Shown here: piece by piece, positions 11,601 through 33,682 of the stretch
How positions within the stretch are numbered: the first letter of the stretch is position 1
Layout of the letters: each line of letters begins with the position of its first letter
The notes under the pieces: model-generated
The model's input: the letters and a program-made list of their open reading frames with translations, nothing else
The model's database searches: none
What the model was told of the DNA's origin: nothing
From: Trichopria drosophilae
Taxonomy: Eukaryota; Arthropoda; Insecta; Hymenoptera; Diapriidae
NCBI GenBank assembly: GCA_030407085.1
Contig: CM059584.1
Span: 138,746,001 to 138,810,000, forward strand
DNA: 64,000 nucleotides
Direction: 5' to 3'
Made by a program: the position numbers and the translations under genes

Positions 11601-14600
11601 TGATGAATAATTACATGAATAATGATAAATTTGTTGACAAAAACAGAAAGTCCTCTTTCTTTTTCAACGCTCCTAATCAACGAAAATGGATTGTCAACTA
11701 ATTTTGTTTTTGTTTAAATCAATTTATACAATCTGTTCATTTGAATTCCAACATACTAGGTGAATTCAGGCTTAGGTACTGATGTACAGAACTTGATCTC
11801 CAATACTTAAGCGTGATTACAATTAGTACAATCTTAATGTGCAAACATTTGAGATATAATCACGGCATGGCAAGCTCCAATCCCAATTAGCTAGACTAAT
11901 AATAATAATCAATGTCTAGTTGATAAAACCAAACGACTTATTATTCATTGACTACGCATTTATTATATTATATTATATTATTTATTTTGTGTAAATAACT
12001 ATTTTGTAGATTCTGGCAATACGGTAGGTGGATAGATGTAGTAATCGATGATCGACTGCCAACTAGAAATGGAAAATTACTCTACATGAGATCACCGGAA
12101 GAAAATGAGTTTTGGGGTCCATTGTTAGAGAAGGCCTACGCGAAACTTCATGGTTCGTACGAATCCCTTAGAGGTGGCACGGCGAGTGAAGCAATGGAAG
12201 ATTTTACTGGGGGACTAACAGAATTATACGAATTGGCATCGGCCCCACCAAATTTATTCAACATTCTTCTCAAAGCGTTTGAAAGAAATTCTCTTCTTGG
12301 CTGCGCTTTGGAGGTATTTAGAGATTTAAATAATTTTTTGTTTTAGATTAAATTAATTTATATCTCATAATATGCTCAAAAAATGTATTCAACAAATTTT
12401 TGGATTCAATACTGATATGGTTAAAGTGGCTAAAGTGAAAATAAAATTATTTTTAATTGTTTTTTTGTTTTTGAAATTTAATCATAGGCAGTTTTTATAT
12501 TTCTTTAATGAGTTTCTTATCAACGTGTCTTTTACTACACAGGGTGATCCACTCTAAGTTGCGTTACAGTGAAATAACTCGACGCATTGTTATTAAATAA
12601 AAAAAGTTTGTATACCAAAATGGTCCGATTTGGAGGGGTTAATTAAATTATGATATTGACAATGAGCTTGTCCTTCGATTTTAAGGTTATTTGAAGGTTT
12701 TCATTTAATTTTAAAATGATAAACTTTATGTCATATGTCGAAGTAAATCGTCCAGCCACTTTTTTGAAAATCCTCATATGACCTTGAAATGATCCTGAAA
12801 ATTCGGGTTCTAGAACATTATCAATGGTATAATTTGTTCTTCCCTTGACAACCAATAATTTACCCCAAAGTACATTATCCTACAAATATCTAATTTAGGC
12901 TTTGAAATGACCTCAACCTTGATGACATCAACTTTATCCAATAATATGACAATTCATCTGCAGGTATAATTTTGAACTGTTTCAAAATCCGGGATCATAA
13001 ATGTGAGTTTTAACAGAAAATCACCTTCGAGTAACATTGAATATAAAGGTCAAGGCCATTGTCAAGGTCCTATTTAAATCAATGAGTACACTCACATTTT
13101 GATTTTCAAAATAAATTATGCTATATTTTAGTAGTCAAAATAGTTTATGCTATATGACTATATAAAACTGCGTACATATGACTTACAACATTGTTATGAA
13201 TATTTAGCCAGATCCAAACGTATTTGAAGCTAGAACTCCTCAAGGACTAATTAAAGGACACGCGTACAGCATAACAAAAATAAAATATGTCGAACTTTCA
13301 ACTCCATATAAAAAAGGAAAAATTCCTTTATTAAGGATAAGAAATCCATGGGGAAATGAAGCAGAATGGAATGGATCGTGGAGCGATAAGTAAGTATCGA
13401 GGCCGTAAAATCATAATATATTTATTTTAATTTTAATCTTGGACAGAACAAAAAAATTTGCATTATAAAAATTGCATGTTTTGTTTCGCAAAATTAAAAC
13501 AAGGCTTTAGCGATTCACTATGCTTCACGGTAAAAATATATCAACAAAAAATAAATATTCTATTAAATGTTTTGCTTATAAGGTTTTTGGTCATATCCGT
13601 TTTACTTAACTATTTTTATATACAGATGGTTTCAGTTAATTTTGTATAAATTGTTCCTTCAAATGAAATATTTTGAATTTATATCACGAGTTCATTTGTT
13701 TCTTTAAGGTATTGTTGTTATTAGTGGAATAGGAACTTACCTTGTTATGTTTATTTAAAAATTATTGTTGAAATAAATACAGAATAATTTAATTACAAAA
13801 ATTTTGCAGTGCTGGAGTTAGACTTTATTTTCCTATTATTATTTAATTGTTTGGCAGATTCGACTGCAGATTCTTTTCAGTATACTCACCATAAACAGTT
13901 TCCTATGAAATATATAACTAATTAGTTGGTAATTGCTAATTATGACATTTACAGAAACTGCAAATTGATTAGAAATTGCAATTGAAATAAAAACAGTGTT
14001 ACGTATCAGTCCTGAAAAGGACTTGTAGTAACAATAAGGAGATACACTGTAGTTAACGTTTGAACTATTTATTCATATATAAACTATGTTACGCGGGTCG
14101 TACATAAGAATACATTCGAGTCGATGGTGGTAGGTTGCGCGGAACCGTTTTAGTCGCGGTCTTAGTCCGAGATTTTAGTGGACTTTGTCACGGATGGAAA
14201 TTGACTGACTGCCCTATGGATTTCATCGACCAGGTAACCTCGGGAAAACAATAAGCTTTCCCGAAGGTACGTGGCTGTAGCTCGTGATGGGCCGCTGGAC
14301 TCGAAGGGAGCCTGATAAGACTTTCGTAAGAAGTCTGATAAAGTTCTCGTGTTTCGAGACCGGATGTGTATTCAGATATCGTCTATACGTTTGATGCGTC
14401 GCTGTCGAAAGATAGCGGTGCATCGAACTAGATCGATTAAATATTTAATTAGGCGTTTATCGCCGAAAATATATACACGTGATGTTCCGAGTGTCGTAAG
14501 CGGAAATCCTCCAACAGCCCATCTCGGTATCTAAGGCTGAAGTTTACGGAGATCGTTGTTTGTCCGGAACAACTATGAGTACATTAGAATATATTAATCT

Positions 14601-17600
14601 ACGTGCGCGGTGCCATAAGATATTAGAAGATGGCGCAGCCGCGTACGTAACACGCCCGGGGCCTAAAAAATCGACGTACCACCGTCGATCAACATAAAAA
14701 TGAATCTATATAATACAAATCTTTGATTGAAACTTAAAAGAAATGACCCAACGCAACGCGTGTTAGTAATATGTATGTATACAAATATGTTACGGTCATC
14801 TTATACAATTGAAAGATCTTAATCCTAGGGTTAGTATTTTACAATATTGTGAGTACGCGTAGTATATGTATATGTATCATGTACATCAAATAGCAGTAGT
14901 GGATATATATGTGTGTGTCGCGGGTGTAGTGTATTTATATATGCTAATTTCGTGTCTTGAAAGTCCTGCATACTTTTGGGCTAGGTATCCCACATCTGCT
15001 GGGCATGCCCTGGTTTATTGCAGGAGTGTCGCCGCATAGCAGACACGAGTCGATTGAGACTGGGTTCCGACATCCTGCATGACTATCAGTGGGACCATTT
15101 CGTTTTCGGACTTCGAGTCTGAGCCTGGCTTTGTCCGAGTGCAACAAACGCGACGCTGCCGAGGTGTTGGAACCTGAAAGTCTGAAACAATACTCTTTCC
15201 ACAAATTAGTAGATGGAGAGACCCCCAAGGGAGGAATCTCCAGATTACAAAGGCTTTTACAATAAACAAAATTGAACCTGGTGTATATAGTGATTATCAT
15301 AGTGGATAGTGTTAATAACGCGTTAAAAAAAATTGTATTCCAGATATTCCGATTAGTATGGGAACCACGCGAGGTAAAACGAACGATCCGCCCGTTCGAT
15401 TCACTTTCTTCAAATACGCGGCCGATTGCCGTCGTAACCCCACGTATGCGCGAGGATGTAAAGGGTGAAATTCCCGAACCTAGGGATTCTTCACCAGAAG
15501 AACCAATCCCTGCCGCACTATCGCGGATTATGGAGACTCTCCGGTCGCGTCAGTCGAATCCAAATGAGTGAGTAGTGCTTATTTCTGTTACCCATTTTTG
15601 TCATTTTTTCCCTATTGTATTGACTTGACACTTCTTTCCGATTTTCCAGTAGGCGTCAGGTGTTCTATCGCCTACGAGATCGTCTAAGGGAACGAACCTC
15701 TCATCCTCTCGACTCCGGACCGTAAAAATTAATTATCCAGTATCGTGTCGACAGATTTCAAATATTTTATATATATAAAAATGTAGATTGACACTAATAA
15801 TAATAAAATAATAATTTTAAAATGTTCGTTTTTCCGTAACATGTGTTTGTATGTGTGAGAGAGAGAAGAAAAATAAAATGAATGAACAAATGCAAATCAC
15901 CGTTTGGCATCCTTTGAATTTTTAAAAGACACGATTTCTCTCTTCAAATTTTTGTCATTATCAGAACGTCTACTCGGTAACGTTGATTTTTCGGATGCAC
16001 GACCCCAAAGCCTATTGACGCTTCTTCGGCGTCATCCAGTTCGAGCCCGAATGTTTTCTCGCCGTGGATACTTGAATGCCATCCGTGATAAGCTCGACGT
16101 TCCATTCAACGTAATGGTTCAAAAATGAACAGATAGAATCCCCATAATGACTGGATGTAATTGAGAGCAGTAATTTGTGTTTGTTCAACTGATATTATAT
16201 ATTATTAAATTCATAGAAATTTGTACGAGTTAAATTTGTGTATTGATAAAAAAAAAGTAAAATAATGCGAGATTGTGCCATCTTTTGTATAATTAAGTGT
16301 TGTGTAATTTCTCTTTACTCATCTCATTGTCTGTATCGTCCCAAGAATCTGAATCAGCTTGGTCCGGGTTGAAAAGTGGATCGAAGGCTTTTCTTAGTTT
16401 ATCGACGTGGACTATCTTGCTACGTGTATTAATTTTGATTTTTATGTTTCGAGGTCCGAGGATTTCTAAGATTTCATACGGTCCCATATATTCGTCGTCA
16501 AATTTCCCTTTAGTCGGTTCCTTGATAACCCACACCATTTCGCCTATATGGAAATGTTTGACGTTTAGCTTCCGATCATAGTATCGTTTCGAACGATGTT
16601 TTGCTTGGCTTAAATTCATCGCCGCAAGCGTTTGAATTTCCTGTAGATTTTGTGTAAGATTCGCCAAGTAATCGTCGTAAGTGACCAGTTTTTCGCGCGA
16701 TGGGAAACTCGTTGGAGTCCTTGCTTTCCTGCCGAAAATTAGTTCGAAAGGCGTGAATTTTGTACCTTCATGTTCACTTACGTTGTAAGAGAACATTGCA
16801 TGTGGTAACCATTCGTCCCAATTCCGTCGATCAGTAACGATGGTTTTAAGGTATTCTTTCAGGACATGATGGCTGCGCTCGAGACTACCGTTGCTCTGTG
16901 GGTGATACGCGGTAGTTTTCGACTGCTTAATTCGGAAGAGTTTGGCGAACTCTTTCAGTACTTTGCCAATAAAATTCTTTCCTTGATCAGTTAGAATTTG
17001 AATTGGCGAACCATAAATGCAAATAAAATGGTCTGTGAAAGCCTTAGCGATTATGGGAGCGGTAATCTCGGGTAGCGGAATCGCGAGGGAGTACTTTGTT
17101 AACTGATCCTGCACTGTTAATACGTACCGATTCCCTCTTTCCGTCAAGTCTGTCGGTCCCCAAATATCAAGAGATACTTTGTCGAAAGAATATTTCGGTG
17201 TATCCGTTATAACCATGGGCAATCGCGTTTTCACTCTTTTTAGTTTTTTACCTTGGCAAATTTGACATCTTCTGATGTACTCCTGAATATCAGATCTCAT
17301 GTTTCGCCAATACCACTCTTTGCAAATACGACGATAAGTTTTTCTAACGCCCTTATGCCCTCCTATCGTTGCGCCATGAAATTCGCGGATAATTTCCATG
17401 CGGTCTGTTGTAGGCGGAATTCGTATGTTATTTTCGCAAAAGACGATTTTCAATTTCTGGTTAGAAAATACGGAACGAAATTGTTCGTGAATATCGTTCC
17501 ATCGTATTTTCGTGATGATGTCTTCGTCATGGCCGACCCTCAATTTTACGACTTTATCTTTCGTAATTTGAGTTTTTAAGTTTTTTAAGCATTGTATGAT

Positions 17601-20600
17601 GGACATTTTCGATGGTACATCATCTGTTGTGCCCGCTATTATTAATCCGTAGATTTGTACATTTCCCCTTTTTGATGTTATTACGTTTCCTATTTTTAAA
17701 TCTGTTTTTTCTATTTTCCCTGTACGTATGTACCGTCGTTCCCGTAAGGTTAAGACGATTTCGCTATTAAATTTCCCATCTGCGGTAGTAAAATACACAA
17801 TATGTCCCGTTTCTTCGAATAAATGTTTTCTTGATATTTCTAATTTTAGTTTATCGCTCTCAAAATCTGTTGTGAAAGGTTCGTCAAGATTTAATTCTGT
17901 GTCAATACCACTTGTTTCGGTCGTTTCGGTCGTATCTGTTTGACCTACTTTTGCGATTTCAGGTGACCCGACGGGGAGATTAGTGTCCTGTTTGGGGTCT
18001 TTAAAATTTCGAACGTGCTGCTCTTCGGTTTGTGATTGTGTGTTTACGTCGACCTGCACCTCTCCAGATGTAAACAAACCAGCTGAAGGGTCGGTGTCCT
18101 CGATCTCCATTTGACTTTCGACAGAGAAATACGGAGTGTAGTGAACATCTTCCAAGTGAAGATGATATATTTTCGAAATGTGAGGTGTTCCTATATGACA
18201 GTATTCCACGGATTTATCTGTATTATATCTATGGACGCAGAAATTTACCTTATAATGGAGCGAAAAAATTTTAAGGATGTTGTCATCACCATATTCGCAC
18301 TCCCTATCGAGTATGATGTATGCGCGGATGGGCTCTGCGCAATTCTGGGCCTGATCGCTATTCTGCAGAATTCTTTTCAGGTCATAAAATGACATATCCA
18401 AGTTATGCAACTTGATCAACGAGTGGAAGAGGCAGTTTCCATCATTGACAATATTCACATCTCTTTCAAATTCCGTATATGGTTCGGCACATTTGTTTCC
18501 TATTTGATAATTCAACAGTGTGTTAGATATACCGTCGGTACTTGGATTAGTGTGCGTGTAAAGCTGCTCTATGTCCTTTCTTCTTTCTTCTTGGCTTCTC
18601 GGATCTTGCGGTTTCCTTTTTCTAACTGCCACACGCGGGCTTGTTTCGGGTGATGGTAAATGCTTTCGCTTTCTCGGCTTTACTTGGGGTTTTATATTTA
18701 ATCTCGGAGTTGATAGTATTTCAACTGTGTCCATTTCATTCCCATTGATCCTTGTATGGTGTCGTTGATCTTCTATATCCATTTGAATTTCTTCGTCCGT
18801 AGTCACATCGATATTTATGTCCTCCTTTCCTCTTAATGCGTTTTGATTGTGCGGTTCAGTATGGCATGTCGGTATCTGTGGTGTTTTTTCTGATATGTCG
18901 AGATTCCTATTAATTAATACGTCTTCATCGCTCCAAGATTCTGATTCCCAATAGTATTCAGAAAGTGAGTTTCTATTTAATATTTCACTGTCGGTATCAG
19001 ACTCATCGTCAGGTGTAGAATACGCTTTATCAATCGCTATTTCATGGTTGTTATCATATTTTGCGGGAGATAGTGTTGCATCGCCATCGATGCGTTGCTC
19101 TGTCTCTCGTTTTCCCATTGTTGTGTCCTCTTTCTTCTCGTTGAGAGGCACGGACGCTACCTGCTTTTTGGACGAGCCGTTTTCCGAAGGGATCGTACGC
19201 ACTGCAGACGAGCCCTGTGTATCAGTTCTTAATATGTTTTCCTTTCGCTCGTCGTTTTCGTCCTTTTCTTTCGTCACGTCCAGCGTACGATTTTCTTTCT
19301 CGCTCGCTTCGTCTGTGTCAAACCGTTCGTCTTCGTTCGTATCGCCTTCTCCCTCTTCTTTTCTCTCTTTCATTAACTCGATGGTATTTCCACGGGTTTT
19401 GTGTGTATTCGAGTCTTCTTGAGCGATTTTGGGAAAAAATGAGACCGTCGATGATGGCAACAAGCGCGATGACGGGAGTCTTGTTGTAAATTTAAAATCA
19501 ATGGTTGGATAATTCGAACCTAGATAATGTTGAGGGTTTGTTAAGTTAGAATTTCTGTGCGGAAGCGGTCGTAGACGGTAGTCATCAATACGCGTGTTCG
19601 TGTAGCGTCGGTTTCTTGGCCATGAAAATTCCTTATCATCGATCCTACGTCCTTGTTTATATTTTCCTATCCTTTTTTTCTTCTTTCTGCGACGCTCTGA
19701 TGCTTCTCCTCTCCTTTTTTTCTTTACTCCATTTTCTATGCGTTTGCGTATTTGTTTATCCTTACCTATCGCATATCGCTCAATCTTATTGTTCCCCGAT
19801 AGTACATGATTTGCTGGTGCAAATCTAAATGGAGATTTAGGCCGGACCTCCTCGTTCAAAACGGGAGCTATAAATGGAGTTTTAGGATACGGGACATGGA
19901 TCGATGTTGTTTCGGGCATAGGCTTGAACACTTTACCCGATCGCGTTTGTCCTGTTGTCGTCGCGATTTTCAGGTAATCGGGAATCTCCAGTAGTTTCTC
20001 GGCTTCTGAAATGTATTTTTTCCGAGTTATTTTGACATTTCCCGAAGTTTCCTTTTTTGTATGTTGTGTTGCCTGTATTTCCGAGACGTTATCTTCGACA
20101 TCTCCGTTTGTATCCGAATCTTCCGTTCTAGCGGCTATTGTTTTTCTTGCAATAGGCCGTCCGTTGGAAGAACTTATCTCCATATTGGACCCTAAATGTA
20201 TTGGATGATATGGGCGATTTCTCTCCTGCGACTTTTTTGTTTTCTGGAGCGGTCTGCATTTTGCAACCGAATTTTTTGACTCTTGTTTTCCACTCATTTT
20301 CTCAAGCGTAGTTACATTTACTCTTGCCAATGTCCTTGATTGTGAATTTGTTATGTAAATGTCGTTTTTCATTTTCTTTACTATAAGCATTTTAAATTTC
20401 TCGTTTTTCTCCTTAATTTCGATTTCTTTTTCGTTTTCGTCATAATCGACGGGTCGACTCCCATCCGCCGGGTTACGCGACAATGCATCGGCATTAACGT
20501 GCCTTTTTCCTTTTTTGTACATAATAGTATATTCGTAATCTTCGAGCTTCATATAAAACCTATGCAGACGACGTGTCAGGACTTTCATTGATTTAGAATA

Positions 20601-23600
20601 AGTAAGGGGTTCGTGATCTGTAATTAACACGAACTTCCGTCCATATAAGTACGGATGAAATTGCTCCACGGCGTAAACTGCGGCGAGCATTTCTTTCTCT
20701 GAAGTCGTATAACGCTCTTCAGCCCCTTTCAAGCCTCGCGATGCATAAGCTACGGGCCTATCTTCTCCTAATTTGCCTTGAGAAAGTATCGCTCCAAGAG
20801 CGAAACCTGACGCATCGGTCGATACAATAAATGGTTCCTCGAAATTTGGGAGTTGTAGTACCGGGCCTTCGCATAATTTAATTTTTAGCGTTTCAAATGC
20901 CTCGATTTGATCCTCCCCCCAAATAAACGGCTGCGAACTATGAAGCAGTACAACTAGAGGATGTGCAATTTTCGAAAAATTTTCTATAAAGCGTCGGTAA
21001 TATCCCGCTAGACCGAGAAACTGCTTAATATTTTTTCGATTTTTCGGTACCGCGAAATTCATCACGGCTTCTACCTTCTTAGGATGGGGTTTGACGCAAC
21101 CGTTTCCGACGATATGCCCTAGATAAATGGCTTCCTTACATAAAAATCTGCATTTTTCAGGTTCGAGAGTAAGATTTGCTTTGCTTAAACGCTCCATTAA
21201 CCGCTCGAATTTTATCTTGTGTTCTTTCAAGTTTTTTGCATAGATCACGATGTCATCGAGATATACAAGTAATTCAATTCCTTGGAGTCCCGATAACACG
21301 AGATCCATTAAGCGTTGGAAGTCACTGGGCCCATTTTTAATACCCATGGGCATTCGAACATATTCATAATGCCCGTGTGGAGTCGAAAAGGCAGTTTTAT
21401 GGGCGTCTCGATCATCCATTGGGATTTGATGAAATCCTGATTTTAGATCGAGAGTCGTGAAATACTCCGATTGACCCAATTGATCGAGTATTTCCGTGAC
21501 GTTGGGAATAGGATAAACATCGCCTATTGTCTTTTCGTTAAGATCACGAAAATCGATAACCAACCTCCATTTTTTAATCCCATCTGGTCCGGGTTTCTTT
21601 GGAACGATCCATGCTGGTGAATCGTATGGAGAGGTCGAGTGTCGGATTATCCCAGCTTTTAGTTGCTCAGCTACTTGTTTTTGCAGTTCTTCCTTAATTG
21701 CTGGAGGTTGCCGATACCGTTTTGCTCGGGTGGGTACGTCGTCCTTCGTATGAATTCGGTGCGAGAATACCGTGGTGCACCCCAACCACTCTCCTGGCAA
21801 GTGAAATCTTTCGGGACTTTCTGATATCAATTTCACAACGTGATCGCGCTCTTCGTTGTTTAGATGTTGTAAATCTATTAATTTTAAGACTTTTTGAGCT
21901 CTCTCATTCTTCTTCGCGGTGTATGGCCTCACGTTCTTTGCATTATCATCGTAGGTATTTAAAAATGGCAGTTTCGCGATTTCGTCGTATTCATACGCAT
22001 TCCCAGACGGTATAATATCGCACTCCTCTAATTCGATTTCCGGAATTTTGACGGTAACTTCTTCTTCGTGCGTATTTATTATATAAAGGTGTGTATATCC
22101 ATTATGGTTTTTAACTAACGCATTCCCGAAATATATTCCGTAGCCAAGGTTGATCTTCGGAACATAGCCTATCTTTATACCGGTTTTTATTTTGACGCGA
22201 ATGACCTTTCTGCATCTGGGTGGGAGTGTTAGAGTCTCATCATCCATGAACGGGATGGTAAAACTCCCAAATTGCAAACAACCGTGCCTATAATCGATAT
22301 TAACGGCGTGTGACCGGAAGAACGGATCTCCTAAAATTCCGTCTTCGGAGATCGGAAATTCGTCGCGCACCACTTGCATTTCGACCGGTATATCGTCAAA
22401 GTTAATTTTGACCGAACCCACCGTTCTTGTTACCCCATCGCCTATGCCACTCAAGTCGTATGTGGTTTTTACGTCGACCGTCGCATTTCTTCGTAGGCAA
22501 CTGAGTTTAATCAAATTAATCTCAGCGCCTGAGTCAACCAAAAACTTGTTCGACTTGCTGTAAAAATCCTCACTTTGGATTTCTACTCTCGGGCACCGAA
22601 CGAGCTCACTAACCCCAAGACGGATTGCGGCTGGTCGGCTGACACCTGTCGGACTCGACGACCTTTCTCTTGGGCGCTCGACGATCCTAGGGTACGTCGA
22701 GCGCCTTCTAAGTTTAAATCCTCGTTGCGTGGAAGGCGAGAATATTCCTGTATATTATTTTTACGACTGTCATTGGCGAAAGGTCTATCATTCTGGCGTC
22801 GCTGCATACTTTCGGGTCGCCTATCTGGGTTATTGTTACGCGAATAATTTTCGTGCGACTGTCTCCTAACATCTCTGTAAAAATTTTCGCGACTGTTAGG
22901 GTTCTCGTAACGATGTTCGTGACGGGGATCTCCAAAATTTCTCAAATTTTCATTTCGACGTGGGTTCTCGAATCGCCGCGAATCTTCGTAATGACGCGGA
23001 TCGTCATATCGGCGTGAACCGTCTAATCGAGGCGAATTATCGTACCTTCGCGAATTACCATATCGCGGCGTGATATTCGGTTTGATATCCTGAGCCCGCT
23101 GAAATGAAAAACATCTTTCCCTGGTGTGCCCTATTCTACCGCAGTGATCGCACTTTGTTTCATTGTAGCGTTTTATATTGCATTCTTCTTCTACATGCCC
23201 GTCTTTTTGACAGTAATTACAGCGGGAATCTCTATCAATGTTTGAATTGATTATATGCGCGGATGCATGCCGAATTATATTACTAGACGAGGCGGACTGT
23301 CGTTCCGCGGCCTCGTCTTTCGCACCGAACAAAAAAGTGAATTTTCGCGCCGCGTCTATTCCTTCCTGCAATGTTTTTACAGGCGTATGCATTAGCCGCG
23401 ATTCCATCATTCCTTTAGCCTCGAGAATGAATCGCTGCAATGCGGCCGAATCAGCGTTTTCAATTAAGTACTTTTTTATTTCATTGCCTAGCTCGGAGTC
23501 GCTTTCGACTGTACTTGTCAAACGACTAACCGCCTGAGCGAGGCGACCCCCGAAATTTAGAAATGTTTCGCCTGTCCTCTGAGTCATGCTATTTATTTCT

Positions 23601-26600
23601 CCTAAAATATTCGCGGGATTTTCGGTGCGACCAAATGATTTTCTTAAATCCGCTAAGAAAGCATCGATAGTGTCGTATGATGATGTACGAGGTCCGAAAT
23701 GGCTTGCTTCGCCGGACAGTTTTGTCCGTAGAAGAAGCAAGAAAGGTCGAGCATCTTCGGGGCTCAATATCGCGAACGCATCGCGTACAGCTCTTTCGAA
23801 CGTTCGAAATCGCTCAAATTGGCCGTCGAACGAGGGAATGATGCCTAACGCCTCATTAATAAGGGATGGTCTCACGGTCACTGATAGTGGAAAGTTTGCG
23901 GACGTGCTTTCCGAGTCGATTTTTATATTTTTAGACATTTTCGCGGTTACCGTGCAAAGAAAAATACTATTTAAACACTATATGTGGGTGTACTTTGATT
24001 CAATCCAATGTATTTCTTTGTTATTTTATTTTATTTTCTTTTTATTATTATATGTATATATATATTTTTTTGTTTATGTCAAATATTAAAACAATCGGAA
24101 ATAAAGACACAATATATATAAAAAAAAATATAGCGTTTGATGAAGAAGGTGGAAATTTTAATTATCTATATGTGATTAAAAAAGAGTCACTTACCCTGTG
24201 GTTTGGGTGATGATCGCGATCACTCCCAATATTATTATGGAGAAGTTCATTTCCTCTGGTAAGTACAGGATGTCACTTTTGCTCACTGTTTTTTTTTCAC
24301 TGCACTCGCGTGGATATAAAAATACCCCTCGGTAACGTGAGGGAGTTCGTAAAACAACGCGTAAAGGGAATAGGCACCCCACACGATCACTTCCGTCGAC
24401 AAAGGAAAAAATCGCGCGCGAAGCTTCACCGCTGCCACCAATTTATGTTACGTATCAGTCCTGAAAAGGACTTGTAGTAACAATAAGGAGATACACTGTA
24501 GTTAACGTTTGAACTATTTATTCATATATAAACTATGTTACGCGGGTCGTACATAAGAATACATTCGAGTCGATGGTGGTAGGTTGCGCGGAACCGTTTT
24601 AGTCGCGGTCTTAGTCCGAGATTTTAGTGGACTTTGTCACGGATGGAAATTGACTGACTGCCCTATGGATTTCATCGACCAGGTAACCTCGGGAAAACAA
24701 TAAGCTTTCCCGAAGGTACGTGGCTGTAGCTCGTGATGGGCCGCTGGACTCGAAGGGAGCCTGATAAGACTTTCGTAAGAAGTCTGATAAAGTTCTCGTG
24801 TTTCGAGACCGGATGTGTATTCAGATATCGTCTATACGTTTGATGCGTCGCTGTCGAAAGATAGCGGTGCATCGAACTAGATCGATTAAATATTTAATTA
24901 GGCGTTTATCGCCGAAAATATATACACGTGATGTTCCGAGTGTCGTAAGCGGAAATCCTCCAACAGCCCATCTCGGTATCTAAGGCTGAAGTTTACGGAG
25001 ATCGTTGTTTGTCCGGAACAACTATGAGTACATTAGAATATATTAATCTACGTGCGCGGTGCCATAAGATATTAGAAGATGGCGCAGCCGCGTACGTAAC
25101 AACAGTACAAAATATTATGGATCCTGTAATTTCTTGCTTTAATTTTACATGTACTTTTAATGAATTTTAATGACTTGATTCCAAAACTGAAAACTTCATT
25201 CATCAAATTTGTACCTTTATGTTACTCGGAAAATTTGATAAAATATTGTAATGAAAAATCTTTTGTTCAAAAACACATTAGTATCCAAAAGTTTTCCAAT
25301 GTAAAAATTTTCATCTTCACATCTTGAATTTGGACACTTTTCTAAGTACTTGCATACAAAATAAATATATTTCAAAGAGCCGTTTTTGAGAAAACCGATT
25401 TTTAGGTTACAATGACTTCGTATTTTATAAGAAATATTGTCTCTTGTATTACGGTGAACAAAATTTGTAATTTCCAATTTGTTTAATCGAAAGTTAAAAA
25501 TTTAAATAAAACCGAAATAACATCTGTCATAGGAGGGAATCCCTACCGACCATCAGAATAAAATGCATTTACTAAGAGAATATAAAAGCGAGACATTTGT
25601 ACTTTGAAATTAAACTATTGTATCGCATTATACCATCTATTATTATTATTGCTATTGAAGTAATTGTCTTAATATCATCTAAAAATGCACTTATTGTTTT
25701 TAGTTGAATGGGCAAAATGTTTGTTGTTAAAAAAATGTAAAAAATTCAATTTCAAAAACAGTTTTGTTAGTATGTTGATGCAATAAGAATACCTGTTGCT
25801 TTATGTAGTTTTTGATTGCAAACACTTTGGACACTTTGAAAAGTGTCCAGATTGAAAATGTAAAGGAATTGTAACAATGTCAGAATTTTTAGGATAAAAT
25901 GCGTTCAGGACCATTCTGATTTTTCGACATATATAAATTATCACATTTTGACGCTTATAACAACATTAATAAATACTTTTAGCAACAAAATTTCTCGGTA
26001 GATCCCCGGAGTGGAGGTTTATACCAGATCACGAAAAAGAAGCTCTTGGTTTAACATTCGATCAGGATGGAGAATTCTGGATGTCATTCAATGATTTCAA
26101 GCGATCTTTTACAACAGTAGACATCTGCAATTTAAATCCTGATTCGTTAACAGAAGATGAAATTACATCCGGCAAGAAAAAGTGGGAAATGAGTATGTTC
26201 GAAGGCGAATGGGTGCGTAACGCTACTGCTGGAGGTTGTCGAAATTATTTAGGTACTAAGAATAAAATATTTTTTATTGCAAAGAATATAATAAATGATG
26301 ATGTTCATACATTTTTTGTTGTTATTTTCAGATACTTTTTGGCATAATCCACAATACATAATTACACTGGAAAGTCCGGATGACGATGATGATAAAGCAA
26401 CCATAATCGTAGCCTTAATGCAGAAAAATAGAAGAGCACAAAGGAAAATGGGTGCTGATCATCTTACAATTGGTTTTGCTATTTACCATGTAATAACTAT
26501 AATTTGAATATCAAATTCTAACTGTGTACCAGTTACTTATACGAATTGCTAAAACAGTGTAATTATTGGTTTTAGCTTCGAAATCCAGAGATGCTGCCAA

Positions 26601-29600: not shown

Positions 29601-32600
29601 TTTTACAGCATTCAGTAAGGATATTTGTAGAAGTATGGTCGCCATGCTCGACGTAGATCACTCTGGCAAACTTGGATTTGTGGAATTCAAAACGTTGTGG
29701 AGCGACGTTAAAAAGTGGATGGTAAATACAAAATTTTCGTTTCAATCCATATTATTTTGATAATACTTCATTTTACTGCATAGAAATAAAGTGAACCACA
29801 CTGAATTTTACTTTTTTGTTGGTGGATCGTTATACAAAAGTCGGACTTTTCTGTGGACCTTCATATTTTCTTAGTGTAATAGCATTATAAGTAATTTGTA
29901 CTTGATCAACAGAATAGCTTAATCACTAATACTTTTATTTAAAAAATTACAAGAAAACTTTTTCCAATAGGATTTTTTTAAGAATAACTATTTTAATAAT
30001 ATATTTTCAGACCTTTGCTCACTTTAGTTCAAGAATTGTTGGACTAAATTATAAGTCTGTATTATACATAATACTGTATTATAAATAAGTACTAAAAATG
30101 CCACGAATTATGGTTTTTTTTAAACTTTTTACGATTTTCTTTACTGAGACATTTTGTAATCAATCAAATACGTACATAAAAAGTTATCTCAATTGTCGAA
30201 TAAAAATAATATCCTAGGTAAAAATAATTTGTATACAGTTATGTCGAAAATTTATGCAATTCTACAGAATTTATATACCCTTTTCCTAATAATTTTGTTC
30301 AATCTTATTTTGCCCGTTTACTTTTCCATCTAAGTTTTCATTAAATAAGAAAAAAGATAAACAAATTGATCAGGTTATTTTTTCTTTATATGTTAGTCCG
30401 CATGTTTATGCGGCTCGGCTGTGGAAAGATTTTTTAAATGTAGAAACATCAGTTTGAAACTAAAATTGAATGAAAAATAAAAATTTCCAAAATAGTCGGA
30501 GCAAAAATGGGGAATAAAATCTCGTTTACTAATAGCAAAATGCAGTAACCCGCAAAATACGATTTTGCACGGAAAATCATGAGTAGAATTTGCCAAACTT
30601 AGTTATGTAAAATTTACCGAGTCTCATTTAAAAGCAAAATTTATTGAAAAATATAAATAAATGGTACTCTAGCATTTAAGTAATATGTTTTTAAATGACG
30701 TTTAATCATAGATTAACGAAAAACTTGTCTAGATATTCTATAACAGCACTATGCCCGAAAATTGTCACCTGTTAAATTAAATATAAAAATTATCTGAATT
30801 TGTTTACTTGGAAAAGATTTTAATACATCATTGGCGTCTATCAAGCATATTAATGAGAAATTCCAGATAAGCTGCAGAAAATTAGGATTGTGCTTTTAAC
30901 TATTTGTATTCACAATGGTTACTCAAGTTTTTCGGTAAATTTCACTTAAGTTCTGGGTAGAATCTACTAATTATTTTTTTCTATGAGCACCTCGATTTTT
31001 TGATGCGATATGAGATTTTAGTGGTACTTATTAACGTTGTTAAAGTTGAAAAAGTTGTTCTCATTACAAAATGTCATTTTGCGCCCTCGGGTCGTGAAAT
31101 AGAATTTTTACTGTCAAAATTATTTTAGTAATATCTTTGTAAATAAAATTTGGAAGATTGTTCGTTTACCAACTACTGTTTGATTGTTCGCACACGTTAG
31201 CATTGCTTTAATCCATCGAAAAGATCAATATTATTTATATTTTTATATCATTAATTATTTGTAGTTGAGCCTATTTATTATTTTTTCAAAAGATTAAGCG
31301 AGCAAATATGCGTGTATCAAGAATTTAAAGACAATATCCCAACTAGAATTTATTATTATATATGCTTAACAATGATCTACACTGTAAAATAAAGAATATA
31401 CTGTATGATTTCAATAAAATTTGAATATGAATGGAGTATTAAGTTAATTTATGATTTTCATATGCAGACGGTGTTCAAACTATATGATAAGGACAAATCA
31501 GGATTCCTGAATTCCTTCGAGTTACGGCAGGCTTTGAATAGTGCTGGTTATAGACTGAATAATCAACTCCTGAATATATTGGTTCACCGATACGGAACGA
31601 AAAATGGACAGATCACTTTCGATGATTACATCATGTGTGTAATTCGTTTGAAGTCGATGATTGGTATGTTTTTTTTTATAATTTAGCACGCCCTAGTTTT
31701 TAATGAGAAACGGTATGTGAGTCATTGGTTCTATTAGTTCAAAATGAAACTTCCATACTAGAAAATTTGTTCAACCAAATAATTTTATTAATATTTAGAA
31801 GAATGTTAATGTAAAAGGTAACTATGCTGGAAAGAAATTTTCTTGCACTTATATTGGCTGCAATTGATCTTGTTCTAAGAAAAGCGTTAAACATTCGGAA
31901 AATTATAATATAAAATATAATATAATAAAAGTACAGACACAGTGTGTCTTAACGCACTTTAACTCAAAAGTTCTCCCACTGTAAATATTCTTGTGGATAT
32001 TGAATCTGGACATTATTAGAAGTATTTTCACAAAAAAATCAAAATCTTTCATCGAGCCGTTTTCGAGCAAATCGACTTTTTAGGTTAAAAAAATAGAATT
32101 TTTAGATTTATATTTAAAATATGTGCTGTAGCGGCATTTAACCTTTTGTACATTAAATCTAGGTAGATTTTTTGAAAAATATATGATGTTTCATATAGCC
32201 AATTTTTAAAAAATCGATTTTTTATGTCAAAATTTGGAATTTTTTGCAGAATTACAATAAAGGAACAATAGTAATTATAAAAACGGATCATTATTTTAAT
32301 AAATTATATGTACTAAATTTTAAATAATAATAATAATTTCTAACATAATTAAAAACTTTATTTGACACCTATTTAAATGTTAAAACAATACATAACAAGT
32401 TTTAGAAACGTGTGTTAATCACACATGGGTACTGATAACACAAGTTTTTATATGCAGATATCAATTTTTTATCTAAAAATTTGGAGGCTGTACATCATGA
32501 CTTCAAAACTATCTGGGAAAAAAATAATATTTCACATAATCATCCGGATTATTCCCAGAAGCTGTTACGAGCTGTCTGTGAATATAACAGTATTCACATA

Positions 32601-33682
32601 TGAAAAACATGTGTATGCAGTACCCACGTGTGATAAGTACACGTTTGTAAAATTTGTTATGTATTGTTTTAACATTTAAATAGGTATCAAATAAAGTTTT
32701 GAATTGTGTTAGAAATTATTATTATTATTTAAAATTTAGTACATATAATTTATTAAAATAATGATCCGTTTTTATAATTACTATTGCTCCTTTCTTGCGA
32801 TTTGGCAAAAAATTCCAAATTTTTACATAAAAAATCGATTTTTTAAAAACTGGTTTTATGAAACATCATATATTTTTCAAAAAAACTCTCTAGATTTAAT
32901 GTACAGCAGGTTAAATACAGTTAGAGCACATATTTTAAATATAAATCTAAAAATTCTATTTTTTTTAACCTAAAAAGTCGATTTTCTCGAAAACGGCTCG
33001 ATGAAAGATTTTGATTTTTTTGTTAAAATACTTCTAATAATGTCCAGATTCAATATTCACAAGAATATTTACAGTGGGAGAACTTTTGAGTTAAAGTGCG
33101 TTAAGACACACCGTGCAGAATATTCGTAAAAATGAAGAACTATCATTTCAATTTAAAAAAATGTCGTTTACAATAATAAATATTATATCTCGCAAACCAT
33201 CGTTTTTCATGTGCAAGTACAACAATTTATATCATACATTTTAAAATATAAGAATTTATGGATATTTTGTAGAAATTTATTTTTTGAAAATACGATCTGT
33301 CGTCAATTGATTTTAATGTACTTATTGCTCATATCTGCTGTTCTTTTATGTATTGTAACTGAACGTCCTTAATAGTGAGGATCCGCGTATTCAAATTCAA
33401 AATACGTAATTTTTTCCACTATTATTCAATACCGATTTACAGACGCGAGAAGTTAATGCATGAGGTAACATCCGGCATGGAATGCTACCACTAATTCCGA
33501 ATTGAATTTATGATGTCGGCAATTAAATTGATATTTATTATATAAAATTATACTTCTTTAATATGTGTAAATAATATATTTCCTAACTATTTTCAGATAT
33601 CTTCCGGGAGAGAGATCCAAACCACACGGATTCAGCTACTTTTACGTTAGGAGAATGGGTTGAAAAGACCCTTTACTCGTAA
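5491..33682 (+). CDS. Conventional calpain (calpain-A/B-like), 14 exons, 5' end missing
   Basis: Calcium-dependent cytosolic cysteine protease of the calpain family (C2). Exons, all with GT/AG borders and matching phases: 5491-5620, 9530-9706, 10386-10573, 12010-12313, 13208-13389, 26002-26252, 26332-26489, 26576-26793, 27198-27240, 28644-28688, 29209-29335, 29609-29721, 31468-31663, 33597-33682. Joined they read 738 residues without a stop to TAA. The catalytic triad is visible: Cys at about residue 128 (GELGDCWLL), His at about 284 (KGHAYS), Asn at about 312 (RIRNPWG). The calpain beta-sandwich domain follows ([14 protein letters not shown] to FSEQKNSM), then EF-hands ([28 protein letters not shown]) and the family C-terminus ([10 protein letters not shown]). 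The length fits conventional calpains. The first exon begins inside a codon, so the start codon lies in an unrecognised upstream exon. Which insect paralogue (A or B) it is cannot be settled here. Confidence 0.93.
5621..9529 (+). other. Calpain intron
   Basis: No coding exon recognised. At about 7140-7280 there is an array of short palindromic motifs (TTGTGTTGAGCACAA), with a related, less regular array at about 2486-2575. The rest is plain AT-rich sequence. Confidence 0.6.
9530..9706 (+). CDS. Calpain exon, start of protease core
   Basis: Phase 0 at both ends, 59 codons. It encodes [19 protein letters not shown] and [17 protein letters not shown], the conserved entry to the CysPc domain, ending at WKRPM before donor GTAATT. 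Confidence 0.92.
9707..10385 (+). other. Calpain intron
   Basis: AT-rich; nothing recognised. Confidence 0.6.
10386..10573 (+). CDS. Calpain exon with catalytic cysteine
   Basis: Encodes the active-site motif [12 protein letters not shown] and continues to YAGIFHF. It starts in phase 0 after TTTTCAG and ends with two bases of an Arg codon before GTAAGT. Confidence 0.95.
10574..12009 (+). other. Calpain intron
   Basis: AT-rich; nothing recognised except a short TTATA microsatellite just before the acceptor at about 11958-11985. Confidence 0.6.
12010..12313 (+). CDS. Calpain exon, protease subdomain
   Basis: The first base completes the split Arg codon. It encodes [18 protein letters not shown] and [18 protein letters not shown], hallmark CysPc segments, and ends in phase 0 at CALE before GTATTT. 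Confidence 0.95.
12314..13207 (+). other. Calpain intron with possible decayed repeat
   Basis: From about 12539 (ACAGGGTGATCCACTCTAA) to about 13080 the sequence resembles a degraded transposable element, with several AAGGTCA/TGACCTT-type motifs in both orientations. No coding capacity remains. The family was not identified. Confidence 0.35.
13208..13389 (+). CDS. Calpain exon with catalytic His and Asn
   Basis: Encodes GLIKGHAYS (His) and [18 protein letters not shown] (Asn). The donor GTAAGT at 13390 leaves two bases of a Lys codon that are completed 12.6 kb downstream at 26002, across an intron filled by a Gypsy retrotransposon. Confidence 0.95.
13993..13996. repeat. Target-site duplication, left copy (ACAG)
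   Basis: ACAG directly abuts the left LTR and is repeated at 25102-25105 directly after the right LTR. Four bases fit Ty3/Gypsy integration. Confidence 0.85.
13997..14652 (-). repeat. Gypsy LTR, left copy (3' LTR of the element)
   Basis: 656 bp, with 9-bp terminal inverted repeats TGTTACGTA/TACGTAACA. I see no difference from the right copy. On the minus strand it carries a TATA-like TATATATTTT and an AATAAA. Confidence 0.95.
14653..16292. other. Gypsy 3' region between pol and 3' LTR
   Basis: 1.64 kb without an envelope-like frame. Sense-strand ORFs of 53 codons (16105-15944, ATG start) and 118 codons (15300-14944) are open but not recognised. On the opposite strand a spliced ORF is possible (15344-15725). 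A purine-rich tract is not clear next to the 3' LTR, where the sequence reads GGCCCCGGGCG on the minus strand. Confidence 0.5.
15344..15725 (+). other. Possible spliced antisense ORF in the Gypsy element
   Basis: The + strand, opposite to gag-pol, has acceptor TTCCAG at 15343, an open exon to 15568, donor GTGAGT, an 83-nt intron with a pyrimidine tract and TTTTCCAG, and a second exon 15652-15725 ending in TAA. The joined frame is acidic/Pro-rich ([15 protein letters not shown]) then Arg-rich ([18 protein letters not shown]). The first in-frame ATG is internal (MREDVKGE). No homologue recognised; it may be chance. Confidence 0.3.
16293..22541 (-). CDS. pol: Gypsy Pol polyprotein with inserted OTU domain (2082 codons)
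   Basis: The open frame extends upstream of 22541 into the gag overlap. Domains, numbered from 22541: aspartic protease ([10 protein letters not shown], residue 2 on); reverse transcriptase with YLDD at about 427; RNase H (TDHEPLTY near 640, [11 protein letters not shown] near 685). A spacer of about 1000 residues, rich in Lys/Arg/Glu and Ser/Thr, with NLS-like KPRKRK and RKRK clusters, follows. It contains an OTU-like domain at about 1355-1475 (Cys 1370 in [10 protein letters not shown], His 1467 in DVHYTPYF). A region at about 1567-1690 resembles a degenerate macro domain. The integrase has an HHCC zinc finger near 1716-1758, D1792, D1852, E1888 (35 residues between the last two) and a GPY/F motif ([13 protein letters not shown]). 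Typical Gypsy Pol proteins are about half this length. Confidence 0.93.
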   Translation of the reverse strand: MVDSGAEINLIKLSCLRRNATVDVKTTYDLSGIGDGVTRTVGSVKINFDDIPVEMQVVRDEFPISEDGILGDPFFRSHAVNIDYRHGCLQFGSFTIPFMDDETLTLPPRCRKVIRVKIKTGIKIGYVPKINLGYGIYFGNALVKNHNGYTHLYIINTHEEEVTVKIPEIELEECDIIPSGNAYEYDEIAKLPFLNTYDDNAKNVRPYTAKKNERAQKVLKLIDLQHLNNEERDHVVKLISESPERFHLPGEWLGCTTVFSHRIHTKDDVPTRAKRYRQPPAIKEELQKQVAEQLKAGIIRHSTSPYDSPAWIVPKKPGPDGIKKWRLVIDFRDLNEKTIGDVYPIPNVTEILDQLGQSEYFTTLDLKSGFHQIPMDDRDAHKTAFSTPHGHYEYVRMPMGIKNGPSDFQRLMDLVLSGLQGIELLVYLDDIVIYAKNLKEHKIKFERLMERLSKANLTLEPEKCRFLCKEAIYLGHIVGNGCVKPHPKKVEAVMNFAVPKNRKNIKQFLGLAGYYRRFIENFSKIAHPLVVLLHSSQPFIWGEDQIEAFETLKIKLCEGPVLQLPNFEEPFIVSTDASGFALGAILSQGKLGEDRPVAYASRGLKGAEERYTTSEKEMLAAVYAVEQFHPYLYGRKFVLITDHEPLTYSKSMKVLTRRLHRFYMKLEDYEYTIMYKKGKRHVNADALSRNPADGSRPVDYDENEKEIEIKEKNEKFKMLIVKKMKNDIYITNSQSRTLARVNVTTLEKMSGKQESKNSVAKCRPLQKTKKSQERNRPYHPIHLGSNMEISSSNGRPIARKTIAARTEDSDTNGDVEDNVSEIQATQHTKKETSGNVKITRKKYISEAEKLLEIPDYLKIATTTGQTRSGKVFKPMPETTSIHVPYPKTPFIAPVLNEEVRPKSPFRFAPANHVLSGNNKIERYAIGKDKQIRKRIENGVKKKRRGEASERRRKKKKRIGKYKQGRRIDDKEFSWPRNRRYTNTRIDDYRLRPLPHRNSNLTNPQHYLGSNYPTIDFKFTTRLPSSRLLPSSTVSFFPKIAQEDSNTHKTRGNTIELMKERKEEGEGDTNEDERFDTDEASEKENRTLDVTKEKDENDERKENILRTDTQGSSAVRTIPSENGSSKKQVASVPLNEKKEDTTMGKRETEQRIDGDATLSPAKYDNNHEIAIDKAYSTPDDESDTDSEILNRNSLSEYYWESESWSDEDVLINRNLDISEKTPQIPTCHTEPHNQNALRGKEDINIDVTTDEEIQMDIEDQRHHTRINGNEMDTVEILSTPRLNIKPQVKPRKRKHLPSPETSPRVAVRKRKPQDPRSQEERRKDIEQLYTHTNPSTDGISNTLLNYQIGNKCAEPYTEFERDVNIVNDGNCLFHSLIKLHNLDMSFYDLKRILQNSDQAQNCAEPIRAYIILDRECEYGDDNILKIFSLHYKVNFCVHRYNTDKSVEYCHIGTPHISKIYHLHLEDVHYTPYFSVESQMEIEDTDPSAGLFTSGEVQVDVNTQSQTEEQHVRNFKDPKQDTNLPVGSPEIAKVGQTDTTETTETSGIDTELNLDEPFTTDFESDKLKLEISRKHLFEETGHIVYFTTADGKFNSEIVLTLRERRYIRTGKIEKTDLKIGNVITSKRGNVQIYGLIIAGTTDDVPSKMSIIQCLKNLKTQITKDKVVKLRVGHDEDIITKIRWNDIHEQFRSVFSNQKLKIVFCENNIRIPPTTDRMEIIREFHGATIGGHKGVRKTYRRICKEWYWRNMRSDIQEYIRRCQICQGKKLKRVKTRLPMVITDTPKYSFDKVSLDIWGPTDLTERGNRYVLTVQDQLTKYSLAIPLPEITAPIIAKAFTDHFICIYGSPIQILTDQGKNFIGKVLKEFAKLFRIKQSKTTAYHPQSNGSLERSHHVLKEYLKTIVTDRRNWDEWLPHAMFSYNVSEHEGTKFTPFELIFGRKARTPTSFPSREKLVTYDDYLANLTQNLQEIQTLAAMNLSQAKHRSKRYYDRKLNVKHFHIGEMVWVIKEPTKGKFDDEYMGPYEILEILGPRNIKIKINTRSKIVHVDKLRKAFDPLFNPDQADSDSWDDTDNEMSKEKLHNT
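18120..18480 (-). other. OTU-type cysteine protease domain inside Gypsy Pol
   Basis: The block D-G-N-C-L-F-H-S (Cys codon 18432-18434) and, 97 residues later, V-H-Y-T-P (His codon 18141-18143) match the two catalytic motifs of OTU cysteine proteases at the usual spacing. Family members remove ubiquitin or ubiquitin-like proteins. Function within this element is inferred only. Confidence 0.8.
22583..23938 (-). CDS. gag: Gypsy Gag (capsid/nucleocapsid)
   Basis: A 451-residue ORF starting at ATG after the element leader. The N-terminal two thirds is the capsid-like region (RLAQAVSRL and [15 protein letters not shown] helices). Two CCHC zinc knuckles follow at about residues 240-253 ([14 protein letters not shown]) and 262-275 ([14 protein letters not shown]), which should bind element RNA. 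The tail, from about residue 295, is a run of short imperfect R/Y/D-rich repeats ([24 protein letters not shown]). The stop at 22583 lies inside the start of the pol frame, which is in the -1 frame, so pol is presumably made by -1 frameshifting; I could not point to a clear slippery heptamer. Confidence 0.9.
   Translation of the reverse strand: MSKNIKIDSESTSANFPLSVTVRPSLINEALGIIPSFDGQFERFRTFERAVRDAFAILSPEDARPFLLLLRTKLSGEASHFGPRTSSYDTIDAFLADLRKSFGRTENPANILGEINSMTQRTGETFLNFGGRLAQAVSRLTSTVESDSELGNEIKKYLIENADSAALQRFILEAKGMMESRLMHTPVKTLQEGIDAARKFTFLFGAKDEAAERQSASSSNIIRHASAHIINSNIDRDSRCNYCQKDGHVEEECNIKRYNETKCDHCGRIGHTRERCFSFQRAQDIKPNITPRYGNSRRYDNSPRLDGSRRYDDPRHYEDSRRFENPRRNENLRNFGDPRHEHRYENPNSRENFYRDVRRQSHENYSRNNNPDRRPESMQRRQNDRPFANDSRKNNIQEYSRLPRNEDLNLEGARRTLGSSSAQEKGRRVRQVSADQPQSVLGLVSSFGARE
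23939..24445 (-). other. Gypsy 5' leader
   Basis: Untranslated leader between the 5' LTR and the gag ATG, AT-rich near gag. It contains only short random ORFs. Confidence 0.7.
24424..24441 (-). other. Putative Gypsy primer-binding site
   Basis: Reading leftward from the 5' LTR, after a 5-nt TAAAT spacer, comes TGGTGGCAGCGGTGAAG. A TGG start (pairing with tRNA 3' CCA) is usual for a primer-binding site. The tRNA was not assigned. Confidence 0.5.
24446..25101 (-). repeat. Gypsy LTR, right copy (5' LTR of the element)
   Basis: 656 bp, seemingly identical to the left copy. Leftward transcription would use a TATA-like TATATATTTT (plus-strand 24916-24926). A poly(A) signal AATAAA sits at 24517-24522 on the minus strand. 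Confidence 0.95.
25102..25105. repeat. Target-site duplication, right copy (ACAG)
   Basis: Second copy of the 4-bp duplication, directly after the right LTR. Confidence 0.85.
25106..26001 (+). other. Calpain intron, right of the Gypsy element
   Basis: AT-rich. The part at about 25218-25410 (GAGCCGTTTTTGAGAAAACC, TTTTTAGGTTA) is a diverged relative of the arms of the foldback element at 31938-33115. No exon seen. Confidence 0.5.
26002..26252 (+). CDS. Calpain exon, end of core and start of beta-sandwich
   Basis: Acceptor CTCGGTAG gives [17 protein letters not shown] in frame; an earlier AG at about 25982 would meet a stop codon. It continues with [20 protein letters not shown] and [17 protein letters not shown], ending with one base of an Asp codon. 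Confidence 0.93.
26332..26489 (+). CDS. Calpain exon, beta-sandwich domain
   Basis: Completes Asp and encodes [20 protein letters not shown] and [19 protein letters not shown]. The acidic DDDDD loop is typical of the calpain C2-like domain. It ends in phase 0 before GTAATA. Confidence 0.93.
26576..26793 (+). CDS. Calpain exon, beta-sandwich domain
   Basis: Encodes [20 protein letters not shown] and [19 protein letters not shown], the conserved end of the beta-sandwich domain. The donor is GTAAGT after two bases of a Glu codon. Confidence 0.94.
27198..27240 (+). CDS. Calpain linker micro-exon (43 nt)
   Basis: TTTTTACAG precedes one base completing Glu and then [13 protein letters not shown], ending in phase 0 at GTATGT. 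It lies in the linker between the beta-sandwich and EF-hand domains. Confidence 0.8.
27606..28445 (-). mobile_element. 5'-truncated Jockey-like non-LTR retrotransposon
   Basis: The minus-strand open frame from about 28445 to a stop at 27851 encodes the C-terminal part of a non-LTR reverse transcriptase: [50 protein letters not shown] and [18 protein letters not shown], the usual thumb/post-RT motifs of the Jockey group. A 3' UTR of about 245 bp follows. The copy is bounded by the 14-bp direct repeat ACTTTATTTATTTA (27592-27605 and 28446-28459), a target duplication. RT catalytic and endonuclease domains are missing, so it is dead on arrival. It lies in a calpain intron, antisense to the gene. 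Confidence 0.85.
28644..28688 (+). CDS. Calpain linker micro-exon (45 nt, phase 0-0)
   Basis: Fifteen codons, [15 protein letters not shown], between ATTACAG and GTAAGT. Symmetric phase means it can be skipped without shifting the frame. Confidence 0.75.
28818..29128. mobile_element. Small TIR element (MITE-like), 311 bp
   Basis: Ends are near-perfect inverted repeats: AGATTGTGCAACTAGGGAGC on the left matches the right end read on the other strand (GCTCCCTAGTTGC changed to GGTCCCTAGTTGCACAATCT). Inside, GGGAGCAAAATAG-like motifs recur in both orientations. No ORF. It lies in the calpain intron before exon 29209. Confidence 0.7.
29209..29335 (+). CDS. Calpain exon, first EF-hand
   Basis: Encodes [20 protein letters not shown] and [12 protein letters not shown], the first, non-canonical loop of the penta-EF-hand domain. 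It ends with one base of an Ala codon before GTAAAT. Confidence 0.92.
29609..29721 (+). CDS. Calpain exon, second EF-hand
   Basis: Encodes [20 protein letters not shown] and [16 protein letters not shown]. The loop [12 protein letters not shown] is a canonical calcium-binding EF-hand. Confidence 0.94.
29722..31467 (+). other. Calpain intron
   Basis: AT-rich; nothing recognised. Confidence 0.6.
31468..31663 (+). CDS. Calpain exon, third and fourth EF-hands
   Basis: Encodes [20 protein letters not shown] and [17 protein letters not shown]. The third loop ([12 protein letters not shown]) is canonical. It ends with one base of an Asp codon before GTATGT. Confidence 0.94.
31938..33115. mobile_element. 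Foldback element, 1178 bp, long inverted arms
   Basis: The left arm begins CACAGTGTGTCTTAACGCAC and the right end reads CACGGTGTGTCTTAACGCAC on the minus strand. The similarity continues almost to the centre (ACACATGGGTACTG near 32421-32435 against CAGTACCCACGTGTG near 32617-32632), giving arms of about 490 bp. A 4-bp CAGA flanks both ends (31934-31937 and 33116-33119). No transposase. It lies in the last calpain intron and would fold into a long hairpin in the pre-mRNA. Confidence 0.85.
33597..33682 (+). CDS. Calpain terminal exon
   Basis: Encodes [20 protein letters not shown] and WVEKTLYS followed by TAA, the usual end of insect calpains (fifth EF-hand, dimerisation helix). Confidence 0.94.

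Follow-up and report, generated by a model that had tools for sequence, protein, structure and literature searches.

What occupies the long interval between RNase H and integrase in the Pol protein of the Ty3/Gypsy long terminal repeat (LTR) retrotransposon described here? The element lies on the minus strand of a 64,000-nucleotide (nt) stretch of the Trichopria drosophilae genome (contig CM059584.1 of assembly GCA_030407085.1), which we call the window and to whose positions all coordinates refer. An earlier note had proposed, from the letters alone, that this interval contains an OTU-type cysteine protease domain, far outside the standard retroelement plan. Genome homology, profile comparisons and a confident fold model support this identification of a real OTU-family domain between RNase H and integrase. 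The domain is present with a predicted OTU fold, its Cys and His are kept, it is under purifying selection, and the domain order is constant across copies of several families. The explanation that we favor, with some reserve, is that an ancestor of a Ty3/Gypsy clade in this genome acquired an OTU-family cysteine protease domain, which selection has kept downstream of RNase H and ahead of a macrodomain-like linker, and which would remove ubiquitin or a ubiquitin-like tag.

The pol open reading frame (ORF; 16293..22541, minus strand) encodes 2082 amino acids (aa) and is organized, from its open frame and Pfam matches, as protease (PR), reverse transcriptase (RT), RNase H, long linker, OTU, macrodomain-like linker and integrase. 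The Cys and His blocks lie in this open frame as proposed: D-G-N-C-L-F-H-S corresponds to residues 1367–1374, and V-H-Y-T-P supplies His1467, 97 residues after Cys1370. The codons of these predicted catalytic residues are at 18432..18434 (Cys1370) and 18141..18143 (His1467), both on the minus strand. The domain as delimited by homology within its own genome, the fold model and profiles spans about 143 aa (residues 1338–1480; 18102..18530, minus strand); it is thus where it had been placed, at 18120..18480, and slightly larger. When the 870-residue spacer was shuffled 200,000 times, a strict signature of Cys plus His never arose and the loose Cys box alone arose 197 times; the shuffle figure serves as a guide only, because the motif was picked after being seen. 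Homology is much the stronger evidence.

Structure prediction, which the earlier note had suggested as a check, gives an OTU fold: the AlphaFold model built from a 21-row alignment is confident (predicted local distance difference test, pLDDT, 88; predicted template modeling score, pTM, 0.85), and among the matches listed in a Foldseek search of the Protein Data Bank (PDB) 50 of 50 are OTU proteases. Cys1370 begins a helix in the model and His1467 opens the last strand, such that the domain has the features by which the family is recognized, namely a predicted OTU fold and a Cys in a D-G-N-C block with a downstream His before the last strand. With the window's single domain sequence as the query against PDB, nine of the 11 rows at E≤10 are OTU (best E 0.18), and these represent two kinds, EschOTU and the OTU of the Crimean-Congo virus L protein; the top profile match is to OTUD3 (E 0.0036). 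NUP120, CadR and other weak family matches fall below every cut-off given.

The domain is widely repeated in its own genome. A 157-aa piece was searched against the window's assembly (936 Mb, 509 contigs), and among the 150 of 697 first-look candidates that were scored, 46 match at 84–100% identity and 104 at 42–50%; eight of the matching places sit in open frames of 2153 aa. We read 88 of the 150 loci, comprising eight from the search output (including the window's own) and 80 that were retrieved, and they form eight clusters at 75% identity, with 39, 8, 2, 10, 8, 1, 19 and 1 members. Retention of Cys and His in related copies, another suggested check, is nearly complete in this sample: 87 of the 88 loci keep the predicted catalytic Cys and 86 keep the His. 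The Asp at Cys-3, the Gly and the Asn are each present in 86 of 88, and at every position of a G-D-D-N block the residue is shared by 86 or 87 loci. Cys, His and the D-G-N block preceding the Cys rank among the best-kept columns of the OTU core, in which the median column has its majority residue in 76%.

The ratio of nonsynonymous to synonymous substitution rates (dN/dS) points to constraint on the domain as well, a test that belonged to the same suggested check. Fifteen pairs of OTU copies were tested with bootstraps (2000 each). For two pairs that span two families dN/dS is 0.165 and 0.168 (about 0.17), and four within-family pairs have values of 0.16 to 0.23; in these six pairs the proportion of nonsynonymous differences (pN) was below that of synonymous differences (pS) in 2000, 2000, 1994, 1990, 1990 and 1893 of 2000 bootstraps. 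Weaker pairs include one with dN/dS of 0.40 (1808 of 2000) and two at 0.48–0.49 (1943 and 1961 of 2000). The synonymous sites of six between-family pairs are saturated, with pN of 0.21–0.40 and support in 2000 of 2000 bootstraps for each.

Several observations weigh against a functional OTU protease. The Pfam check gave a divided result, as the window's own OTU sequence has no match to Pfam OTU (PF02338) up to E 10, and only other copies match, weakly (6 of 21 relatives of the domain, best E 0.0063); NCBIfam and PHROGs likewise give no OTU match for the window's domain. An hhalign comparison with Pfam-recognized OTUs scores 95.1% (23% identity over 79 columns), but the match ends before the His. 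Two residues after the His (His+2), 86 of the 88 loci have a Thr. This position is acidic or Asn in many OTUs, commonly the third catalytic residue (Asp or Asn), and the Thr is the main reason for caution about the predicted catalysis, although some OTUs draw the catalytic acid from elsewhere or do without one. The Cys and His retention is inflated because the loci come from the top matches: 40 diverged loci were chosen for long stop-free frames and the remainder for their scores, a sample biased to well-kept copies. Three young pairs have dN/dS of 0.55, 0.72 and 0.80 (no bootstraps), as expected for copies decaying after insertion; the pattern across all pairs is one of constraint on transposing lineages followed by decay of single copies. 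Finally, searches of the protein database and of two collections of contigs show no relative of the OTU domain outside this genome: the OTU region has no protein match at E≤0.01 (proteins of 1145–3643 aa) or E≤10 (about 220–700 aa), weak evidence of absence because that search requires shared five-residue words, and there are no relatives among IMG/VR and GTDB contigs. The Pfam silence on the window's copy and the poor model obtained from the single sequence (pLDDT 35.5) would also fit a chance pairing of D-G-N-C and H-Y in a loosely constrained linker. We count this reading as refuted, since the shuffles, the 150 genome matches, the Cys and His retention, the confident OTU fold and the selection all speak against it.

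The placement between RNase H and integrase recurs in copies of other families. For six further clusters we examined a single copy per cluster, searching upstream and downstream pieces separately. Upstream of the OTU domain, RNase H is found in five of the six (three also with RT and PR, and one with PR), and the sixth upstream piece has no match; downstream, integrase is present in all six and the macrodomain-like linker in five. Alignment to the window's Pol starts at residues 1329–1343 in four of the six, and runs into the linker and integrase where the frame continues; the other two have further weak upstream matches at 20–24% identity, with one short match of 44% (L024). Upstream of residue ~1310 the families align weakly or not at all. 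The window's Pol has 890 aa between RNase H and the linker, more than any other of the 115 distances measured (median 146). A long, charged and poorly conserved stretch, defined by spacing and between-family alignment, lies between RNase H and the OTU domain (18531..20474, minus strand).

This Pol has 301 database relatives at E≤0.001, and a pattern search for the OTU Cys box found none among the 120 of these that were listed; Ser look-alikes of the box are present in P0027 and P0048, and a looser pattern also matched SNDCAL in P0057. The named relatives among these 120 are all from Hymenoptera except for one pseudoscorpion. A quick RT–RNase H tree of 121 rows, including the four OTU rows with an RT–RNase H region and other rows from other sources, puts the four OTU bearers on one side of a branch with a Shimodaira–Hasegawa-like approximate likelihood ratio test (SH-aLRT) value of 100. 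The simplest reading is that a common ancestor acquired the OTU domain once. Separately, we note that three related bee proteins (P0041, P0069 and P0105) have a Monjiviricetes-type viral fusion glycoprotein domain, an env-like capture; in P0041 it follows the integrase (E 1.7e-231), and in P0069 and P0105 it is known by precomputed Pfam only.

The domain could instead have been captured recently from a host OTU gene, or from the OTU of another transposon, and be carried as passenger cargo. The genome does hold candidates, with 39 further OTU matches above the Pfam cut-off, several of which recur in open frames that are alike in length. None of the 46 places given by that search overlaps the 150 Gypsy-OTU places listed, however, and the two sets are remote, with the 23% identity over 79 columns given above; the saturated synonymous sites in six of six between-family Gypsy pairs make the capture old, and purifying selection speaks against a passenger. 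Recent capture is therefore very improbable. The best match of the OTU domain to a viral model has 28% identity over 138 columns. Some of the further genomic OTUs (L101–L110) have a Y/F-G-T-D block. The frames flanking repeated copies of these other OTUs gave no Pfam match in the two tried, including that of L112, which may belong to another type of transposon.

The slot is not otherwise empty, which corrects the earlier note: 118 of 121 related proteins, the window's included, match a profile of the linker of about 150 aa that lies immediately ahead of the integrase and downstream of the OTU position. In the window this linker is at residues 1573–1720 (17382..17825, minus strand). A profile from 16 linkers, compared with PDB, matches OARD1/TARG1 (C6orf130) at E 3.5e-19 over profile positions 6–130, a homology that extends over the domain. 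When P0005, a related element, is left out of the linker model, the model still matches the Macro domain of P0005, with an i-Evalue of 1.3e-16 (1000 sequences, of which 999 were shuffles); that protein has an extra Pfam Macro domain at residues 763–896 (E 2e-7) within its own RNase H–integrase slot. On profile evidence the linker is a diverged relative of the TARG1-type macrodomain. The catalytic lysine of TARG1 is K84 in the available portion of PMC8501950. By motif, the TARG1-type lysine and Gly-rich loop are absent from the window's linker, and by rough regular expressions 32 of the 118 linkers retain a K-like plus [LI]D..W motif and five a G.GL[DE] loop. A PT-HINT match on the linker (Pfam, E 5.6e-4, below the cut-off) is read as a spurious resemblance because a profile built over that stretch finds OARD1 at 3.5e-19.

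The literature matches listed, seen as titles and the starts of abstracts, include no report of a macrodomain-type linker in retrotransposons. As a macrodomain relative, the linker would give an identity to the stretch preceding the integrase and point to ADP-ribose biology in retrotransposition. We tentatively propose, as a rather doubtful extension, that the RNase H–integrase slot of these arthropod Gypsy elements houses enzymes that remove host protein marks: almost all would have an ancestral TARG1-type macrodomain, one carries a full macrodomain in addition, and this clade has an OTU domain. The element would then reach the integration complex equipped to erase both ubiquitin and ADP-ribose tags. 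Some RNA viruses offer a parallel in pairing a protease with a macrodomain.

What the OTU domain does for the element can be outlined from its conservation and predicted fold, which suggest that the element edits ubiquitin marks and shields its own proteins. The likeliest role would be removal of ubiquitin from element proteins or nearby host proteins, and the likeliest benefit would be that integrase or particle proteins are spared from the proteasome or a ubiquitin-based block. The domain would be translated as part of Pol, and either be freed by the aspartic protease or stay attached to both linker and integrase. Its targets at the particle or integration complex would be Pol, integrase, Gag or host proteins, which it would strip of ubiquitin or a ubiquitin-like tag, and the element proteins could thereby escape degradation or a host block.

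The same conservation bears on two further readings. The fold could be catalytically dead or for binding only: it would hold ubiquitin or another partner and, instead of cleaving, provide integrase or particles with a scaffold. The Thr at His+2 would fit this, and so would the adjoining linker, which itself lacks the TARG1-type lysine in this element; having lost that lysine, the linker is an instance of a degenerate enzyme domain that persists here. A scaffold has no need of the catalytic Cys, however, and Cys, His and the D-G-N block are all among the best-kept columns; moreover, a plant-virus OTU protease works with a Cys–His dyad and no third residue. We think a scaffold unlikely. Alternatively the OTU domain could be a second polyprotein protease that cuts the oversized Pol, for example at the RNase H–integrase junction, much as certain viral OTU proteases cleave both polyprotein and ubiquitin. 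Its position in a 2082-aa Pol between products that are usually separate is the sole sequence evidence for such a role. Set against this, an aspartic protease motif, DSGA, is present at the start of Pol, and relatives without the OTU Cys box exist, so the junction is presumably cleavable without an OTU domain, and self-processing strikes us as quite improbable. Removal of ubiquitin or a similar tag, ahead of scaffolding or processing, is the role we favor.

The element belongs to Ty3/Gypsy by its RT–RNase H–integrase matches to Pfam, its LTRs and a short target duplication. The 5' LTR (24446..25101, minus strand; ends TGTTACG...CGTAACA) and 3' LTR (13997..14652, minus strand) are 656 bp each and 100% identical, and the same 4-bp target site duplication, ACAG, is present at both flanks (13993..13996 and 25102..25105); the insertion is young because the LTRs are identical and the flanking duplications match. 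The gag ORF (22583..23938, minus strand; 451 aa) is an open frame with two CCHC-like knuckles by eye and no Pfam match above the cut-off. In pol, the PR is assigned by eye from the DSGA motif alone near the start of the frame, and is followed by the RT core (residues 314–478; 21108..21602, minus strand; PF00078, E 5.2e-36) and RNase H (residues 566–669; 20535..20846, minus strand; PF17917, E 3.1e-34). The integrase (16389..17414, minus strand) has an H2C2 zinc finger, a DDE core and a C-terminal SH3-like part, with Pfam matches to PF17921 (E 2.4e-19), PF00665 (E 2.6e-7, just below the cut-off) and, weakly, PF22938 and PF24626. No env is evident, as the longest frame found between pol and the 3' LTR is 118 aa (14944–15300), with no sign of being a gene. 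Elsewhere in the window there is a Copia-type element, so classified from its frames (44223–48931), in which the 250-bp terminal repeats have 99.6% identity and two frames, of 1175 and 213 aa, are open, and a large inverted repeat (31938–33115) with arms of ~518 bp that are 92.7% identical and a spacer of ~140 bp. Open frames at 52784–54135, about 28 kb from the Gypsy element, are taken by us to be dystrophin exons, and the window is probably in or near the dystrophin gene.

The enzyme set of a retroelement is usually fixed. If this Pol does hold a deubiquitinase kept by selection, ubiquitin would be a weapon or a clock in the conflict between insect genomes and retrotransposons, and the OTU domain is a compact enzyme candidate for this question. 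Among the literature matches listed, there is no OTU in an LTR-retrotransposon Pol, which is not proof of being unpublished, as these are titles and abstract starts, with most subscription journals and Repbase outside their scope; in the available parts of PMC2577118, PMC6875170 and PMC11943222 the term OTU has another meaning or context.

Extra enzymes captured by retroelements offer a general likeness. Accessory domains of LTR retrotransposons include, in the available text, chromodomains, DnaQ-like exonucleases and viral helicases in insect elements (PMC6338049, whose main text lacks the term OTU) and an N6-methyladenosine (m6A) demethylase in an orchid Gypsy (PMC9289625). Among OTU proteases themselves, the cellular OTUD3 and OTUD2/YOD1 share the fold of the window's predicted domain, but are stand-alone host enzymes with 13–19% identity in structural alignments; the nairovirus OTU proteases (3pse, 6dx2, 7jms and 3prm) have 14–22% identity in the Foldseek rows, and their context is the L protein of an RNA virus. 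Another related setting is that of the Helentrons, rolling-circle transposons that carry OTU-like domains (PMC6431247 and PMC9741609, in their available portions). The likeness is an OTU domain encoded by a transposon, whereas Helentrons are Rep–helicase elements with another mode of replication; a role of their deubiquitinase domains in protecting transposition proteins has been suggested, with transposon OTU activity described as untested in the accessible part of PMC9741609. A parallel in domain content is that of the Ginger1 DNA transposons, which, as described in the available text of Bao, Kapitonov and Jurka 2010 (PMC2836005), have a Gypsy-like integrase followed by OTU or Ulp1, with terminal inverted repeats. 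Both systems combine a Gypsy-type integrase and an OTU domain in a single transposon protein; Ginger1 is a cut-and-paste DNA transposon with its OTU domain C-terminal to the integrase, whereas the window element has LTRs and an RT, and its OTU domain precedes the integrase, in the Pol of a retrotransposon.
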